Source: Terracoccus sp. 273MFTsu3.1 (lineage in GTDB: Bacteria > Actinomycetota > Actinomycetes > Actinomycetales > Dermatophilaceae). Taken from it: a stretch of 64,000 bases of DNA. Within the stretch, counting starts at the first letter, position 1; each line of letters begins with the position of its first letter. The notes below the pieces were generated by a model that was not told the origin of the DNA, did no database searches, and was given only the letters and a program-made list of their open reading frames with translations. Location: assembly GCF_000383675.1 (NCBI RefSeq), contig NZ_KB911820.1, positions 434,001 to 498,000 of the forward strand. The letters are read 5' to 3'. A program made the position numbers and the translations under genes. Positions 49,723-56,018 of this stretch are shown piece after piece.

Positions 49723-52044
49723 ATGCGTCCCCTGACCTCCCCGCTCGGCCGCGCCGTCCGGCGCGGAAACGCTTGTCTCGCAGCCTTCGTCGTCGCCGTC
49801 GGCGTGAGCGCCGTGGTCCCTGCGGCCGCCGCGTCCGCCGGTCGTATGCCGGCCGCCACAGCCCCAGCGACGGCCGACAACGCCGTCTCGGACGCGTTCT
49901 CGGACACCTTCGCCGACCCGTCCGTCATCCGCGGACGCGACGGCTGGTGGTACGCGTACGCGACGTCCGACCCGCTGCGCGCGGGTGACGCACCCGGAGC
50001 GATCCACATGGCACGCACCCGCGACTGGTCGAGCTGGGAGTACCTCGGCACGGTCTTCGACGCGGGCAACCGGCCGTCGTGGGCCACCTCGACCGCCGGC
50101 CTCTGGGCGCCCGACATCCGTTACGTCGCAGGGCGATACGTCCTCTACTTCACCGTGACGGACACGACGCTCAACCCCGGCGACGACTCCGCGATCGGTG
50201 CCGCGACGGCGCCCTCGCCGTCGGGTCCCTGGACTCCCGCCCCCGCGCCGGCCGTCCCACCCCGGCCGGCGTCGGGTGGCGGGTTCCTCTGGACGTTCGA
50301 CCCGGCGGGCTTCACGGACGTCGACGGCCAGCGCTACCTCTACTACGGCAGCTACTTCGGCGGCCTGTGGGCGACGAGGATGTCGGCCGACGGCCTGACC
50401 CCGGTCGGCACGGCCACGCAGGTCGCCGTCGACAACCGCTACGAGGGTTCGTACGTGGTGCGCCACGGCGACCTCTACTACCTCATGGGCTCGGCCGCGA
50501 ACTGCTGCGCCGGCCCGACGACGGGCTACTCCGTCTTCGCCGGCCGGTCGCGCTCACCGCTCGGCCCGTTCGTGGACGCCGAGGGCACCCCGCTGCTGAC
50601 GTCGCGCGTCGGCGGCACGACCGTGCTGACGCAGAACGGCAACCGCTTCGTCGGCGCCGGCCACCACGCGGTGGTGACCGATGCCGAGGGACGTGACTTC
50701 ATCGCCTACCACGCCATCGACCGGACGAACCCGTGGCTGACGACGACCTTCGGCATCAACCGTCGACCGATGCTCCTCGACCGCCTCGACTGGGTCGACG
50801 GCTGGCCGCGCACCCGCGCCGGGGCCGGACCGTCCGACACCCCGCAGCCGGCGCCGTCACTGGCCTCCGGGCTCGGGATCACGCCGACCGACCCGTCGAG
50901 GAGCGGTTTCACCGGGCTGGATGACGGACCTGTCGACGCCGTCACCGGAGACACCGGACTCGTGCACGGCACCGCCTCGACGAGTGCCGCGGCGCCGTCC
51001 GGGCCGCTCCACGTGCGCCTCGACCACCGCGGCACCGAGCCGCTCCGGGTCCTGCTCGGGCGCGACCCGGCCGTCAAGGTCACGCTCGACCCCAAGGGCG
51101 GGCGCCTCACGGCCCAGACCGACCGCTGCGGCACCGTCCGCTCGTCCACGACGACGCTGCCCGCACTCCCGGCCGGAGCGTGGCGCACGCTGACGGTCGA
51201 GGCGACGTCCGACGGGCTGACCGCCGAGGTGACCGAGAGCGACCTCGCCGACGTCGTGGCGCGGGTGAGGGTGGCCGGCGACTCCCGTCCCGCCGCTGCG
51301 CCGGTGCGCCTCAGCAGCAGCAGTGCGGTCGTCGACAACGTCGTGGTCAACCCGGCGGCAGCGGATGCGACAACGCTGGCGCCCGTGCCGGTGGCCGGGG
51401 CCCTCCTCTCCGCGGAGGAGTTCGACGACCCGAGCCTCGCCGGGTTCACCTGGGTGCGGCGCAATCCGGCCGTCACCGTCTCCGGCGGGAGCCTGCACTG
51501 GCCCGTCGAGGGCACCGACCTCGTCGGCGGTGGCAACACCGCGAGCGTCCTGCTCCACGACACCCCGGGCGACGGCGACTGGATCGCCGAGGCGAAGACG
51601 ACGCTCGACCTCGGTGTCGACACCGTGCGCAACTACCAGCAGTTCGGTCTGCTCGCCTACGAGGACGACGACGACTTCGCGCGCCTGTCCAACGTCGCGA
51701 TCTGGAACACCCGGCAGACCGAGTTCGGCCGGGAGACTGCCGCCGACCCGGATGCCCCCGACGGTCCGACGAGCTATGGCGGCGCCATCATCGGCACCTC
51801 CGCCCCGACGCTGTGGCTGCGGCTCGCCCACCACCGCGACGCCGCCGGCGAGCACCTCTACCGGGCCGGCACGAGCCGCGACGGGGTGCACTGGACGTGG
51901 GGAGCGACGTGGACCTTCCGCGCCGACACTCACCCGCGCATCGGGCTCGTCGCGCACGGCGGCGCGAGCCCGGCCGTCACCGCCGAGGTCGACCACCTGC
52001 GGTTCTACGCGTCGAGCTGGCCGGCCGACCCGGCGGCAGGATGA
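49723..52044 (+). CDS. Secreted multidomain GH43 arabinanase/arabinofuranosidase
   Basis: A 773-residue secreted enzyme. Signal peptide about 1-38 (AAFVVAVGVSAVVPAAAASA). The GH43 five-bladed propeller (60-370) has general base Asp65 in FADPSVI, a second acid in WAPDIRY and Glu in RYEGSYVV, and GNRFVGAGHHAVV with the conserved His. A concanavalin-like beta domain (about 400-555) follows, then a third module (about 560-765, EEFDDPSLAGFTWVRRNPAVTV) of the DUF1349/beta-xylosidase C-terminal type. Endo-1,5-arabinanase activity fits the locus. The next gene overlaps by four bases. Confidence 0.88.
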   Translation: MRPLTSPLGRAVRRGNACLAAFVVAVGVSAVVPAAAASAGRMPAATAPATADNAVSDAFSDTFADPSVIRGRDGWWYAYATSDPLRAGDAPGAIHMARTRDWSSWEYLGTVFDAGNRPSWATSTAGLWAPDIRYVAGRYVLYFTVTDTTLNPGDDSAIGAATAPSPSGPWTPAPAPAVPPRPASGGGFLWTFDPAGFTDVDGQRYLYYGSYFGGLWATRMSADGLTPVGTATQVAVDNRYEGSYVVRHGDLYYLMGSAANCCAGPTTGYSVFAGRSRSPLGPFVDAEGTPLLTSRVGGTTVLTQNGNRFVGAGHHAVVTDAEGRDFIAYHAIDRTNPWLTTTFGINRRPMLLDRLDWVDGWPRTRAGAGPSDTPQPAPSLASGLGITPTDPSRSGFTGLDDGPVDAVTGDTGLVHGTASTSAAAPSGPLHVRLDHRGTEPLRVLLGRDPAVKVTLDPKGGRLTAQTDRCGTVRSSTTTLPALPAGAWRTLTVEATSDGLTAEVTESDLADVVARVRVAGDSRPAAAPVRLSSSSAVVDNVVVNPAAADATTLAPVPVAGALLSAEEFDDPSLAGFTWVRRNPAVTVSGGSLHWPVEGTDLVGGGNTASVLLHDTPGDGDWIAEAKTTLDLGVDTVRNYQQFGLLAYEDDDDFARLSNVAIWNTRQTEFGRETAADPDAPDGPTSYGGAIIGTSAPTLWLRLAHHRDAAGEHLYRAGTSRDGVHWTWGATWTFRADTHPRIGLVAHGGASPAVTAEVDHLRFYASSWPADPAAG

Positions 52045-53081
52045 GCCGCACCCGCAACTCCCAGACCGCCCACACCACCGTGGCCCTCGCCCTCGCAGCC
52101 GTGCTCCTCGCCGGCTGCGGGGGCGGGACCCCGACCCGCCCCGGAGGCACCGTGACCACACCCGCGACGCAGTCAGCACCGGCCGCGACGAACCCGGTCT
52201 GGCCGAGCAACTTCCCCGACCCGCAGATCCTCCGGGACGGCGACGGCTGGGTGGCCATCGCCACCAACGGCAACGGGATGAACGTCCAGACCCTCGTCAG
52301 CGACGACCTCGCGACGTGGACCCAGGGCAGCGACGCCCTGCCCCAGGTCGCCTCGTGGAGCACGCCCGGCAAGGTGTGGGCTCCCGAGGCACACCGGTTC
52401 GGCACGAAGTGGGTGATGTACTACACGACGATGGCGCCCGACCCGGCCATCCAGTGCATCGGCCTGGCCGTCGCCGACGACCCCAAGGGCCCGTACCGCG
52501 ACTCGAGCAGCAAGCCACTCGTCTGCGAGCAGGACGAGGGCGGCTCCATCGACGCGTCCCCCTTTGTCGCGACGGACGGCACGGCATACCTCTACTGGAA
52601 GAACGACGGCAACGCCGTCGGCAGGGACACGTGGATCTCGGTGCAGCGCCTGTCGGCCGACGGGACGCGGCTCGAGGGTGAGCCGAAGCGCCTGATCCGG
52701 CAGGACCTCCCCTGGGAGGGGACCCTCGTCGAGGCGCCCTTCGTGTGGGAGCGCGACGGCGTCTTCCACCTCTTCTACTCCGCCAACGACTACGGCAGCG
52801 ACAAGTACGCCGTGGGGCACGCGACGGCCTCGTCGCCGACCGGCCCGTTCACCAAGGATGAGGACCCGGTCCTGACGGGCACCGACGTCGCGGCCGGTCC
52901 GGGCCACTGCGCCCTGCTGGAGACGAAGGACGGGCGCGTGCTCATGGTCTACCACGCGTGGGTGCCCGACTCGATCGGCTCGGAGGTGCCCGGCCGGACC
53001 ATGTGGCTCAGCGAGGTCACCTTCGACGGGAAGACGGTCTCGGTCACACCACCGGCGACGCGGCTGCCGTCCGGGTTGTGA
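52041..53081 (+). CDS. GH43 lipoprotein
   Basis: A 346-residue cell-surface GH43 enzyme anchored through lipobox LLAGC (Cys26). The propeller starts at NFPDPQI with catalytic Asp60; the second position reads VWAPEAHRF (Glu instead of the more common Asp, a variant known in some GH43 subfamilies), then GGSIDASPFV and the acid Glu in LVEAPFVWERDG; GPGHCALLE follows. It may be an exo-acting arabinofuranosidase trimming products of the preceding enzyme before import. ATGA overlap with the preceding gene; it ends the operon before a hairpin. Confidence 0.85.
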   Translation: MSRTRNSQTAHTTVALALAAVLLAGCGGGTPTRPGGTVTTPATQSAPAATNPVWPSNFPDPQILRDGDGWVAIATNGNGMNVQTLVSDDLATWTQGSDALPQVASWSTPGKVWAPEAHRFGTKWVMYYTTMAPDPAIQCIGLAVADDPKGPYRDSSSKPLVCEQDEGGSIDASPFVATDGTAYLYWKNDGNAVGRDTWISVQRLSADGTRLEGEPKRLIRQDLPWEGTLVEAPFVWERDGVFHLFYSANDYGSDKYAVGHATASSPTGPFTKDEDPVLTGTDVAAGPGHCALLETKDGRVLMVYHAWVPDSIGSEVPGRTMWLSEVTFDGKTVSVTPPATRLPSGL

Positions 53082-53289: not shown

Positions 53290-53982
53290 TCACGTGCGGG
53301 CCTCGGCGAGCACCTTCCCGGTGCCGGTGCGCACCTCCAGCGCCTGGATCTCGTTGGGGCGCAGTGCCGTCGCGCCGGTGACGCGGGAGTAGCCGGCCGG
53401 CGTCGCCCGCCACGACGCGGCGCTCGTCGCCCTGCCGCTCCGGTCGATGACCCAGAGGGCCAGCTCACCGTTGGTCGGCATGTCCTCGCAGTTGACGTCG
53501 AGCTGGGTGCCCCAGCCGCGCGTCACGAGGGCGATGTCGATCCGGACCTGGCTGCCCGCGACGGCGGCCGCAGCGACGTGCGTCGTCGGCAGGGTCGGCG
53601 TGGTCGGTGTCAACAGCTGCGGACCGAGCCAGGCGCCGGCGGCGAAGAGCACGACCGCGGCTGCGGCGGCCACGACGGACATCCACGCCCGACGCCGCCG
53701 GCGGCGTCGGGCGACCTCGCCGAGGAGGGTGACGAGGTGCTCGTCGTCGTGGTCCGTCATGAGGGGAGCGGGCACGGCGACGGGGGTGTCGGTGAGGTGC
53801 GGACCGCCCTCGGGGCCGGCGAGGTCGAGCAGCCGCGGCATCCCGGAGACCTGGCCGAGCTCGGTCTGGCACTGCCGGCACGAACGCAGGTGCTCGCTGA
53901 AGGCGCGGTGGTCGTCGTCGGACAGGCCACCGAGCACGTACGCGCCGAGCAGCACGTGCAGGTCGTCCGATCCGGTGGTCAT
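53290..53982 (-). CDS. Zinc-finger anti-sigma factor
   Basis: A 230-residue membrane anti-sigma factor. The N-terminal zf-HC2 ASD domain shows HLRSCRQCQTEL (H-x3-C-x2-C) at residues 31-42; a basic stretch RRRRRRRAW precedes the single transmembrane helix (about 100-120); the C-terminal 100 residues are extracytoplasmic and match the 'anti-sigma-K factor' type domain (VTRGWGTQLDVNCEDMPTNG). It should hold the sigma factor, with which it shares a four-base ATGA overlap, until a periplasmic signal or redox change releases it. Confidence 0.9.
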   Translation of the reverse strand: MTTGSDDLHVLLGAYVLGGLSDDDHRAFSEHLRSCRQCQTELGQVSGMPRLLDLAGPEGGPHLTDTPVAVPAPLMTDHDDEHLVTLLGEVARRRRRRRAWMSVVAAAAAVVLFAAGAWLGPQLLTPTTPTLPTTHVAAAAVAGSQVRIDIALVTRGWGTQLDVNCEDMPTNGELALWVIDRSGRATSAASWRATPAGYSRVTGATALRPNEIQALEVRTGTGKVLAEART

Positions 53983-54467
53983 CTCGTCACTCCCATCTCG
54001 TCGAGGATGACGCGCAGGTTGCGCACGGCGTAGTAGGCCCGGGATTTCACGGTGCCCTCGGGCACCCCGACGCGGGTGGATGTCTCGGCGACGGTCAGGC
54101 GTTCGAAGTAGAGGTAGCGCACGATCTCTCGGTGGTTGGTCTGGAGGCGGCCGAGGGCTTCCTCGACGAGTACCTGGTCCAGGGCGCGGTCCAGGGCGGA
54201 GTCCGCCTCGGCCACGTCGACGAGCTGCGCCTGCTGGGGCCGCCGGCCGGCGGCACGGTGCTGGTCGACGATGAGGTGGCGGGCGGTCGTGATGAGGTAG
54301 GCGCGCAGGTTGTCGGCCTCGGGGGCCTGCTTCCAGACGCGCAGGATGACCTCCTGGACGATGTCCTCGACCCGGTTGGCGTCGCTCGTCGCGCGCCAGA
54401 CGACGCGTCGCAGCATCGGCCCGTGCTCGCGGTAGATCTCAGCGACCGCCTCGTCGTCGAGCGGCAT
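53979..54467 (-). CDS. ECF RNA polymerase sigma factor (SigK/SigL-like)
   Basis: A 162-residue sigma factor with only sigma-2 (about 10-70; DANRVEDIVQEVILRVWKQA) and sigma-4 (about 105-158; YLYFERLTVAETSTRVGVPEGTVKSRAYYAV). The anti-sigma gene follows with overlap. Both its own leader and that of the divergent lipoprotein gene contain TGAACC-n16-CGT(C/A)TC, so it very probably activates itself and that lipoprotein. The ATG at 54467 lies downstream of GAGGAGG at a spacing of about 9. Confidence 0.92.
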   Translation of the reverse strand: MPLDDEAVAEIYREHGPMLRRVVWRATSDANRVEDIVQEVILRVWKQAPEADNLRAYLITTARHLIVDQHRAAGRRPQQAQLVDVAEADSALDRALDQVLVEEALGRLQTNHREIVRYLYFERLTVAETSTRVGVPEGTVKSRAYYAVRNLRVILDEMGVTR

Positions 54468-54503
54468 TCCGCAGCCACCTCCTCACTCGTGCTCCACCGT
54501 CCA

Positions 54504-54531
54504 GAGACGCCTGCGCGGCCCGTCAGGTTCA
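54504..54531 (-). promoter_or_regulatory. ECF-type autoregulatory promoter of the sigma gene
   Basis: On the minus strand TGAACC (54531-54526), 16 bases, CGTCTC (54509-54504). Same -35 and spacing as the divergent promoter. Confidence 0.75.
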
Positions 54532-54545
54532 GTCCTGTCCACCCC

Positions 54546-54573
54546 TGAACCGTCTCACGCCGGGAGACGTATC
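54546..54573 (+). promoter_or_regulatory. ECF-type promoter of the lipoprotein gene
   Basis: TGAACC (54546-54551), 16 bases, CGTATC (54568-54573), 43 bp before the lipoprotein ATG. Identical -35 to the sigma gene's own promoter. Confidence 0.75.
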
Positions 54574-54615
54574 CGACATGGACGCCACCCGGGCGTCGAG
54601 ATCGAGGAGGTCATC

Positions 54616-55137
54616 ATGATGCGAACCCGATCCATCAGCACGACGGCGCTCGCCGCCGCGGTCCTGGTGCTCTCGACGGCCTGTGGGTCGTCGACTCCCG
54701 AACCCTCCAGCCCGGCGCCCCCGGCACCGTCGGCCTCCACGTCTGCCGGAACGTCGACCGGAGGTGGCGGCGCCGAGGTCACCGAGCTCAAGACGGCGAG
54801 CTCGTCACTCGGGACGATCGTCACGGACGGCAAGGGCATGACGCTCTACATGTTCGACAAGGACACCAAGGGTGGCTCGACGAGCGCCTGCTCGGGTCAG
54901 TGCCTCGCGGCCTGGCCTCCGGCCCTCATGGGCGCGGCCGCGCCCACGGCGTCCGGGGTCACCGGCACGGTCGCGGCGATCGACACACCGGACGGCAAGA
55001 AGCAGCTCACCCTGGGTGGATGGCCGCTCTACTACTGGGCCAAGGACACGAAGCCCGGTGACGTGACGGGGCAGGCGGTCAAGGACGTGTGGTGGGTGCT
55101 CGACGCCGCCGGGACGCCGATCAAGACCAAGCCCTAG
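54616..55137 (+). CDS. Lipoprotein with PF03640-type repeats
   Basis: A 173-residue exported lipoprotein with lipobox LSTAC (Cys23), a Ser/Pro/Thr-rich linker to about 52, then two copies of the 'secreted repeat of unknown function' (PF03640): LGTIVTDGKGMTLYMFDKD with ACSGQCLAAWPP, and QLTLGGWPLYYWAKD with DVWWVLDAAG. The family is frequent in actinobacterial surface lipoproteins and often linked to SigK/SigL-like regulons or heme/redox proteins. The Cys pair in ACSGQC could bind metal or form a disulfide. GGAGG about eight bases before the ATG. Confidence 0.85.
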   Translation: MMRTRSISTTALAAAVLVLSTACGSSTPEPSSPAPPAPSASTSAGTSTGGGGAEVTELKTASSSLGTIVTDGKGMTLYMFDKDTKGGSTSACSGQCLAAWPPALMGAAAPTASGVTGTVAAIDTPDGKKQLTLGGWPLYYWAKDTKPGDVTGQAVKDVWWVLDAAGTPIKTKP

Positions 55138-55175: not shown

Positions 55176-56018
55176 ATGTGCCCCGCCGACCTGCCGAATC
55201 CGGCCCAGCACCCCGTCACCGGCGGCCTCTTCCTGTCGCCGGTGCCGGCGGGCTCGGGCTGGCCGGGTGACCCGGCGACGTCCGAGACGCCGGTCGCGGC
55301 CACCCCGGCGCAGGTGCGCCGGCTCGCGCAGGGTGCGGACGGCATACGCGAGCTCGATGCCCGCATCAGCGTGTGCCGCGCGTGCCCGCGCCTCGTCGGG
55401 TGGCGTGAGTCGGTGGCGACGGAGGGACGTCGCGCGGCGTTCGCCGACCAGCCCTACTGGGGGCGCCCCGGGCCCTCCTTCGGGGACGCGGACGCAGAGG
55501 TGCTCGTCGTCGGCCTGGCACCGGCGGCCAACGGCACGAACCGAACGGGTCGGATGTTCACCGGCGACCGCTCCGGCGACTGGTTGTATGCCGCCCTCCA
55601 CCGGGGTGGGTACGCGAGCCAGCCGACGTCGGTGGCCTCGGGTGACGGGCTCGTGCTGACAGGCCTGCGCATCGTCGCCGCCGTCCGGTGCGCCCCACCC
55701 GCCAACAAGCCCACGACCGAGGAGAAGGCGACCTGCGCGGCGTGGCTCGACCGGGACCTCGAGCTCTGCGAGCCGCGGCTGCGCTCGATGCTCGCCCTCG
55801 GGTCCATCGCCTGGGACGCGGCGCTCGGGGCGGCCCGCCGCCGGGGGTGGGACGTGCCGAGGCCCAAGCCGAGGTTCGGCCACGGCGCCGAAGCCGTGCT
55901 GGCGACCGCCAGCGGGCGGCAGGTGCGCCTCGTCGGCAGCTACCACGTGAGCCAGCAGAACACCTTCACGGGCAAGCTCACCGAGGCGATGCTCGACGAG
56001 GTCATCGCGCGCCTCTGA
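55176..56018 (+). CDS. Type 5 (UdgB-like) uracil-DNA glycosylase
   Basis: A 280-residue Fe-S uracil-DNA glycosylase. [22 protein letters not shown] near 110-130 is the family 5 catalytic/uracil-pocket motif; the 4Fe-4S cysteines are in CRACPR, RCAPP and downstream TCAAW and LCEP regions; [16 protein letters not shown] near 255 is the DNA-intercalating motif block. It removes uracil and possibly hypoxanthine from DNA. TAGCGT six bases before the ATG implies a leaderless transcript. One codon, ATA in DGIRE, is very rare here and arises from the dispersed octamer. Confidence 0.9.

Follow-up and report, generated by a model that had tools for sequence, protein, structure and literature searches.

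Does one ECF sigma factor drive both its own operon and the lipoprotein gene that lies back to back with it? The question is raised by a locus in the window, i.e., the whole 64,000-nucleotide stretch of DNA analysed here, in which the genes for a sigma factor and an anti-sigma factor overlap by 4 bp and a lipoprotein gene is divergent from both. An initial annotation had described TGAACC, 16 bases and CGTCTC or CGTATC upstream of the sigma gene and the lipoprotein gene, and had predicted that the sigma factor activates both promoters with a membrane anti-sigma factor as its inhibitor. The features of the locus are the following.

53290..53982, minus strand: anti-sigma factor gene, zinc type (230 aa; Pfam zf-HC2 above cut-off)
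53979..54467, minus strand: ECF sigma factor gene, SigL-like (162 aa; Pfam Sigma70_r2/r4)
54504..54531, minus strand: predicted promoter of the sigma/anti-sigma operon, TGAACC (54531-54526), N16, CGTCTC (54509-54504)
54532..54545, no strand: gap of 14 bp between the back-to-back -35 elements
54546..54573, plus strand: predicted lipoprotein promoter, TGAACC (54546-54551), N16, CGTATC (54568-54573)
54616..55137, plus strand: secreted lipoprotein gene with two PF03640 repeats (111.1 bits against a cut-off of 24.4, in two stretches)

The twin sites were confirmed, being the sole exact matches to TGAACC-N16-CGT[C/A]TC in the window, where 0.02 are expected; a pair of matches appeared in 0 of 100 shuffles. 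If one mismatch is tolerated, the window holds 2 matches against 1.19 expected, which is unremarkable. The -10 element of the sigma promoter lies 36 nt from the sigma ATG, and the lipoprotein site 42 nt from the lipoprotein ATG. The genome scan for TGAACC-N16-CGTNTC that had been proposed along with the sites was more equivocal. Across the whole genome (4.94 Mb) it recovered the pair, as two of 7 exact sites versus 0 for a reversed control pattern. The others were coding, unconserved or unassigned: L003 and L005 stand at the starts of coding frames and are found letter for letter elsewhere in the genus, L004 is intergenic and its spacer resembles none at the sites in the eight other genomes, and L006 and L007 are the remaining two. 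We therefore rejected the strict scan as a regulon finder. It also missed the third target described below in 8 of 9 Terrabacter genomes, because the target reads CGTCTT there.

In a phmmer search of the PDB, the sigma factor was closest to Mycobacterium tuberculosis SigL (E 1.8e-28), followed by a SigL sigma-4 fragment (2.2e-15) and, as the next ECF factor, SigK (4.6e-11). The best-scoring NCBIfam subfamily model, PRK09645, which we take to be the SigL model, gave 152.9 bits, below its cut-off of 202, and the protein is therefore filed as SigL-like only. The anti-sigma factor carries a zinc motif, H31-x3-C35-x2-C38, plus H9; across 17 aligned rows H31, C35 and C38 never vary, and H9 is found in 7 of them. 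A single strongly hydrophobic segment (residues 101-119) shows in its hydropathy profile, and the NCBIfam anti-sigma model scored 53.7 bits, under the cut-off of 100. By its HxxxCxxC motif and the position of its gene next to the sigma gene, the predicted protein is of the ZAS type. Compared by eye with the ECF19/AS19-1 motifs HTLAGAYALDAL and LDDERAAFERHL, the anti-sigma segments HVLLGAYVLGGL and SDDDHRAFSEHL agree at 7 and 6 of 12 residues; AS19-1 anti-sigma helix motifs are quoted in a passage of PMC7406223.

The lipoprotein has a lipobox cysteine (C23) and a C92-x3-C96 pair, and all three cysteines are invariant in 57 aligned rows. PF03640 is, by its Pfam title, a family of unknown function. 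A structure model of the protein has a mean pLDDT of 84.9, with high confidence from about residue 53 onward; compared with PDB structures (viral library left out) it had no match at E <= 0.001 and none at Z >= 2, and a sequence search of the PDB gave nothing better than E 0.027. An assignment of function from the fold was rejected, as neither the structure search nor the sequence search of the PDB gave a significant match. Surface sensing or redox defence, which had been suggested as the role of the lipoprotein, is a guess.

The surroundings of the locus include two GH43 glycoside hydrolase genes in tandem (49723-53081, Pfam), ahead of which two genes resemble sugar ABC permeases by eye. A uracil-DNA glycosylase superfamily gene (55176-56018) lies immediately 3' of the lipoprotein gene.

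Site, sigma factor and lipoprotein across genomes

For comparison between genomes we counted TGAAC[CT]-N15-17-CGT upstream of a gene as a site. PF03640 was found by Pfam in 43 of 297 genomes of the window's order, chosen without reference to the sigma factor. The compared set comprised 54 PF03640 genes from 47 genomes, with 5 genomes added from a separate survey and with G050 (a PF03640 fragment at a contig end), a third G406 copy (C2:3047), G003 and G008 left out. A genome was scored as having a SigL-like sigma at 182 bits or more; genomes scored as lacking one had a best match of 155 bits or less. We found the site upstream of 30/30 PF03640 genes with a SigL-like gene adjoining (0.042 expected per gene), of 6/9 with an unlinked SigL-like gene, and of 0/15 in genomes without a SigL-like sigma (11 genomes, 4 genera). 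Three genomes (G425, G444 and G474) have a SigL-like sigma and a PF03640 gene that lacks the site. In another (G103) the lipoprotein gene is 136 kb from the sigma gene, and CGTCCT stands in both promoters.

The Fisher test of site presence against SigL-like status (p = 9e-11, 54 genes) is raw and ignores kinship, and it overstates the support, because about three promoter changes on the lipoprotein tree underlie the pattern. On that tree promoter state changes 3 times and sigma presence 5 times, both clustered, and an independent-pair test could draw on only 3 pairs from supported branches, a number too small to reach significance.

A set chosen by the lipoprotein gave further counts, which are biased since the query was made from lipoproteins near SigL-like genes. 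Among the best 80 of at least 575 loci, all 80 from named records, a site lies within about 400 nt upstream in 71 (0.047 expected per locus), a SigL-like gene is present in 71, and both features occur in 66; in five loci a SigL-like gene is present and the site is missing. Gene order in these loci is divergent, sigma-anti-lipoprotein, or lipoprotein first, so that gene position varies and the site stays with the lipoprotein gene. The two promoters also vary together: 2.06 of 3 variable -10 bases were common to the sigma and lipoprotein promoters (68 distinct pairs), compared with 1.16 in shuffled pairs and 1.47 in pairs shuffled within orientation class, and 0 of 5000 shuffles of either kind was as high. 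Spacing was 16 in 66 of the 68 sigma promoters and 62 of the 68 lipoprotein promoters, with 15-17 searched.

We next consider how far the link extends. The class-wide set chosen by the sigma factor held 60 loci, mostly the best-scoring of roughly 140 listed, plus L086 and L076. Of these 62 SigL-like loci, 48 have a self-promoter, with 0.025 expected at each; upstream sequence is nearly absent at L207 and L236. Seven of the 62 have a PF03640 gene nearby (about 4 kb or less), and three of those seven genes carry no site; conservation of the lipoprotein link across the class was rejected on this count. Because self-promoters and PF03640 neighbours differ so in frequency, self-control of SigL-like sigma factors appears to be general across the class and the predicted lipoprotein target mainly a feature of the window's order.

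Within the window's genus, very probably Terrabacter, the lipoprotein gene is often lost. Seven other Terrabacter genomes contain the locus sigma, and 5/7 are without an intact lipoprotein gene. G003 and G008, outside the 54-gene set, have the lipoprotein gene and the twin sites. G007 (L068:2966-3613) still has the promoter and the first part of the gene, the rest being a shortened remnant, which by its sequence appears to be a decaying regulon member. In G006 the gene is gone; its -35 remains, followed after 17 nt by CGT, and now precedes the uracil-DNA glycosylase gene, which is the divergent neighbour of the sigma gene where the lipoprotein gene has been lost. In G001, G004 and G005 neither the lipoprotein gene nor a divergent site was found at the sigma locus, and the incomplete genome G002 gave no SigL-like match. 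The lipoprotein thus seems to be a dispensable, optional member of the predicted regulon.

A third target and other genes behind the site

A further predicted target lies outside the window.

L379:2701-3087 (G000:C1): four-helix membrane protein gene, about 579 kb from the sigma gene

TGAACC-N16-CGTCTY recurs upstream of this gene in 6/6 genus genomes first searched. A protein search of 60 further genomes gave 15 relatives, 9 with the site and 6 with none; the nine include the three remaining Terrabacter genomes, so that the site is present in 9/9 genomes of the genus. The -10 reads CGTCTT in eight of them and CGTCTC in G002, where the site is present though no SigL-like gene was found in that incomplete genome. 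The -35 lies 98-100 nt from the ATG, and the TGA of TGAACC doubles as the stop codon of the preceding gene. The protein has 128-129 aa and four hydrophobic stretches, with no Pfam or NCBIfam match above cut-off. It is present in 0/11 genomes that have PF03640 and lack a SigL-like sigma; many genomes with a SigL-like sigma are also without it. Relatives in L080, L081, L151, L167 and L201 are near SigL-like genes and have their own sites.

A survey of TGAACC-N15-17-CGT gave 335 sites in 200 loci, with some genomes counted twice. The sites precede sigma genes in 113 cases and PF03640 genes in 103. A DUF2231-like membrane protein (23.9 bits in Pfam, below the cut-off of 26.4) lies behind the site in 25 loci, and the other recurrent genes encode YceI (9), the four-helix family (6), a Pfam-less secreted protein (4), cupredoxin (4 sites in 3 loci) and Rieske proteins (3); a few small clusters resemble chance frames. 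The groups were named by Pfam from one or two members each, and their names lean towards envelope redox chemistry. Together with the ZAS motif, the genes for cupredoxin, Rieske and YceI proteins behind such sites in other lineages make an envelope-redox role of the circuit no more than plausible. At L084, L087, L313, L315, L327, L336 and L340 the lipoprotein gene is divergent from YceI near a sigma gene, with TGAAC[CT] sites both ways.

Taken together, the prediction of one sigma factor for both promoters, with a membrane anti-sigma factor as inhibitor, is strongly supported by comparison, in the counts by sigma status, the paired -10 variation and the further target. Weighing against it are the clustering of promoter and sigma presence on the tree, the PF03640 genes that lack the site despite a SigL-like sigma in the genome or locus, the C and A after CGT where M. 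tuberculosis SigL prefers G, the double use of the TGA at the third target, the site of that target in G002, its six relatives with no site, and the 21 matches to the locus sigma in the window genome, by which another sigma factor could read the sites. The lipoprotein as the defining output did not survive, given its loss in most of the Terrabacter genomes and the retention of the distant membrane-protein site. These data leave two other explanations to weigh. The lipoprotein might be an input, a surface sensor acting on the anti-sigma factor with its induction as feedback, much as lipoprotein CseA is described in part of PMC8999054 as modulating SigE in Streptomyces coelicolor. PF03640 is recurrently close to SigL-like sigma/anti-sigma genes in the order and the anti-sigma factor retains an outer domain in which a WG is invariant (17-row alignment), as such a sensor would suggest, but we consider this role unlikely, given that the sigma and anti-sigma genes persist in five Terrabacter genomes that have no intact PF03640 gene, that 55/62 class-wide SigL-like loci have no PF03640 within about 4 kb, and that sites of this kind also precede other envelope genes. 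It is very improbable that the sigma factor controls only itself, with the lipoprotein site either incidental to the short divergent region or used by a different ECF sigma: the -35 left in G006 and the 21 matches to the locus sigma in the window genome fit such a view, but the site accompanies the lipoprotein gene whether downstream, upstream or unlinked, is absent at all 15 PF03640 genes in genomes without a SigL-like sigma, and was not found as a divergent site in the three genomes (G001, G004 and G005) that have no lipoprotein gene.

The sigma-2 loop and the spacing of divergent promoters

The sigma-2 loop of the locus sigma is short (KQAPEADNL). In M. tuberculosis SigL, Asp60 in this loop sets the preference for G directly after CGT, according to a section of PMC6372665. 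The locus pair has C at this position in the sigma promoter and A in the lipoprotein promoter, and thus differs from the SigL-type G. We located the loop in 126 of 159 sigma factors, and the counts use 95 distinct sigma factors with both a loop and a self-promoter. C follows CGT in 32/37 self-promoters of sigma factors whose loop has at most 11 residues, and in 1/58 of those with a longer loop; the other 5/37 short-loop self-promoters keep G. In a quick tree from which most of the loop had been left out, 36/37 short-loop sigma factors form one clade, and the association of short loop with C is therefore, in essence, one event. Against a switch of specificity, the Terrabacter lipoprotein promoters have A (window and G008), T (G003) and G (G007) at this position; at short-loop loci overall, C is found in 25/30 lipoprotein promoters. 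This pairing of loop and -10 base lends itself, as a natural experiment, to the study of -10 recognition by ECF sigma factors.

The spacing of divergent promoters showed a second regularity, which was a post hoc observation. Among 81 distinct divergent pairs the -35 gaps cluster near 2-3, 13-14, 22-25 and 32-45 bp, with a resultant of 0.41 at a period of 10.5, and 0 of 5000 jittered sets was as high; with one gap per genus (n=36) the median p was 0.005. For 13 new pairs among the matches listed, a Rayleigh test set beforehand was not significant (p 0.167), and testing for concentration at the predicted peaks yielded p 0.046, or p 0.032 with one pair per genus (n=9). With replication this weak, the data are no more than suggestive of gaps stepped by about one helical turn.

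Read jointly, a short sigma-2 loop might have switched the -10 base from G to C in a clade of Terrabacter and relatives plus Arthrobacter-type Micrococcaceae, with most promoters following, and divergent -35 spacings might have been held in helical phase, coupling both polymerases. This joint reading is possible and rather doubtful, and it is weakened because G is retained in 5/37 short-loop promoters and replication by the test set beforehand was not significant. If true, it would be a natural rewiring of ECF promoter specificity.

The predicted circuit and known systems

Our data make it very likely that the locus is an autoregulated SigL-type ECF circuit, in which sigma, anti-sigma, divergent lipoprotein and distant membrane protein would share a common TGAACC-N16-CGT signal, as read from their sequences. 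The zinc anti-sigma factor would hold the sigma factor at the membrane until a signal frees it; thiol oxidation of the CxxC zinc site, by analogy with RslA, is the leading guess. RNA polymerase with the freed sigma factor would then read TGAACC-N16-CGT promoters and make more sigma and anti-sigma factor, so that the loop amplifies and then shuts off, along with the divergent PF03640 lipoprotein and, in trans, the four-helix membrane protein encoded at a distance of about 579 kb. The predicted outputs are very probably envelope proteins, with the lipoprotein one of at least three predicted units. Two uncharacterised proteins thereby gain a testable predicted regulator in a wiring that recurs in related bacteria. 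The predicted regulon would be inducible for study in soil bacteria, as PF03640 and the four-helix protein here and as cupredoxin, Rieske, YceI and DUF2231-like genes elsewhere.

The TGAACC element is itself familiar, since work by Hahn in 2005 and Dainese in 2006 is said to give it as the -35 of M. tuberculosis SigL promoters. The SigL-RslA system of that species is the closest to the locus: SigL is the closest solved relative of the locus sigma, and both systems have a ZAS anti-sigma factor with a membrane part. The zinc ligands, His plus HxxxCxxC, are as in RslA (an excerpt of PMC2877774), and a self-transcribed promoter is common to both, the M. tuberculosis SigL holoenzyme transcribing from P-sigL (a further passage of PMC6372665). 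The differences from SigL are a sigma-2 loop about four residues shorter, in which the Asp60 position is missing by our alignment, C or A after CGT where SigL prefers G, and a different set of targets, here the PF03640 lipoprotein and the four-helix membrane protein.

MPT70 and MPT83 are exported or surface proteins. SigK-RskA of M. tuberculosis (ECF18/19), whose regulon includes both and whose sigma factor is placed in ECF18 in a portion of PMC7509140, is a related sigma/anti-sigma pair, but SigK has weaker similarity to the locus sigma (E 4.6e-11) and different targets. In the open-licence literature searched, outside which key papers lie, the parts seen held no report linking PF03640 to a SigL-like sigma, and we make no claim that such a report is absent from print. 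The nearest link there is the SigU regulon of Streptomyces coelicolor, said in part of PMC6295645 to include SCO0930, the namesake of the nearest NCBIfam lipoprotein model (NF040526, the SCO0930 family equivalog); the window lipoprotein scores 128.3 bits against this model, below its cut-off of 275.
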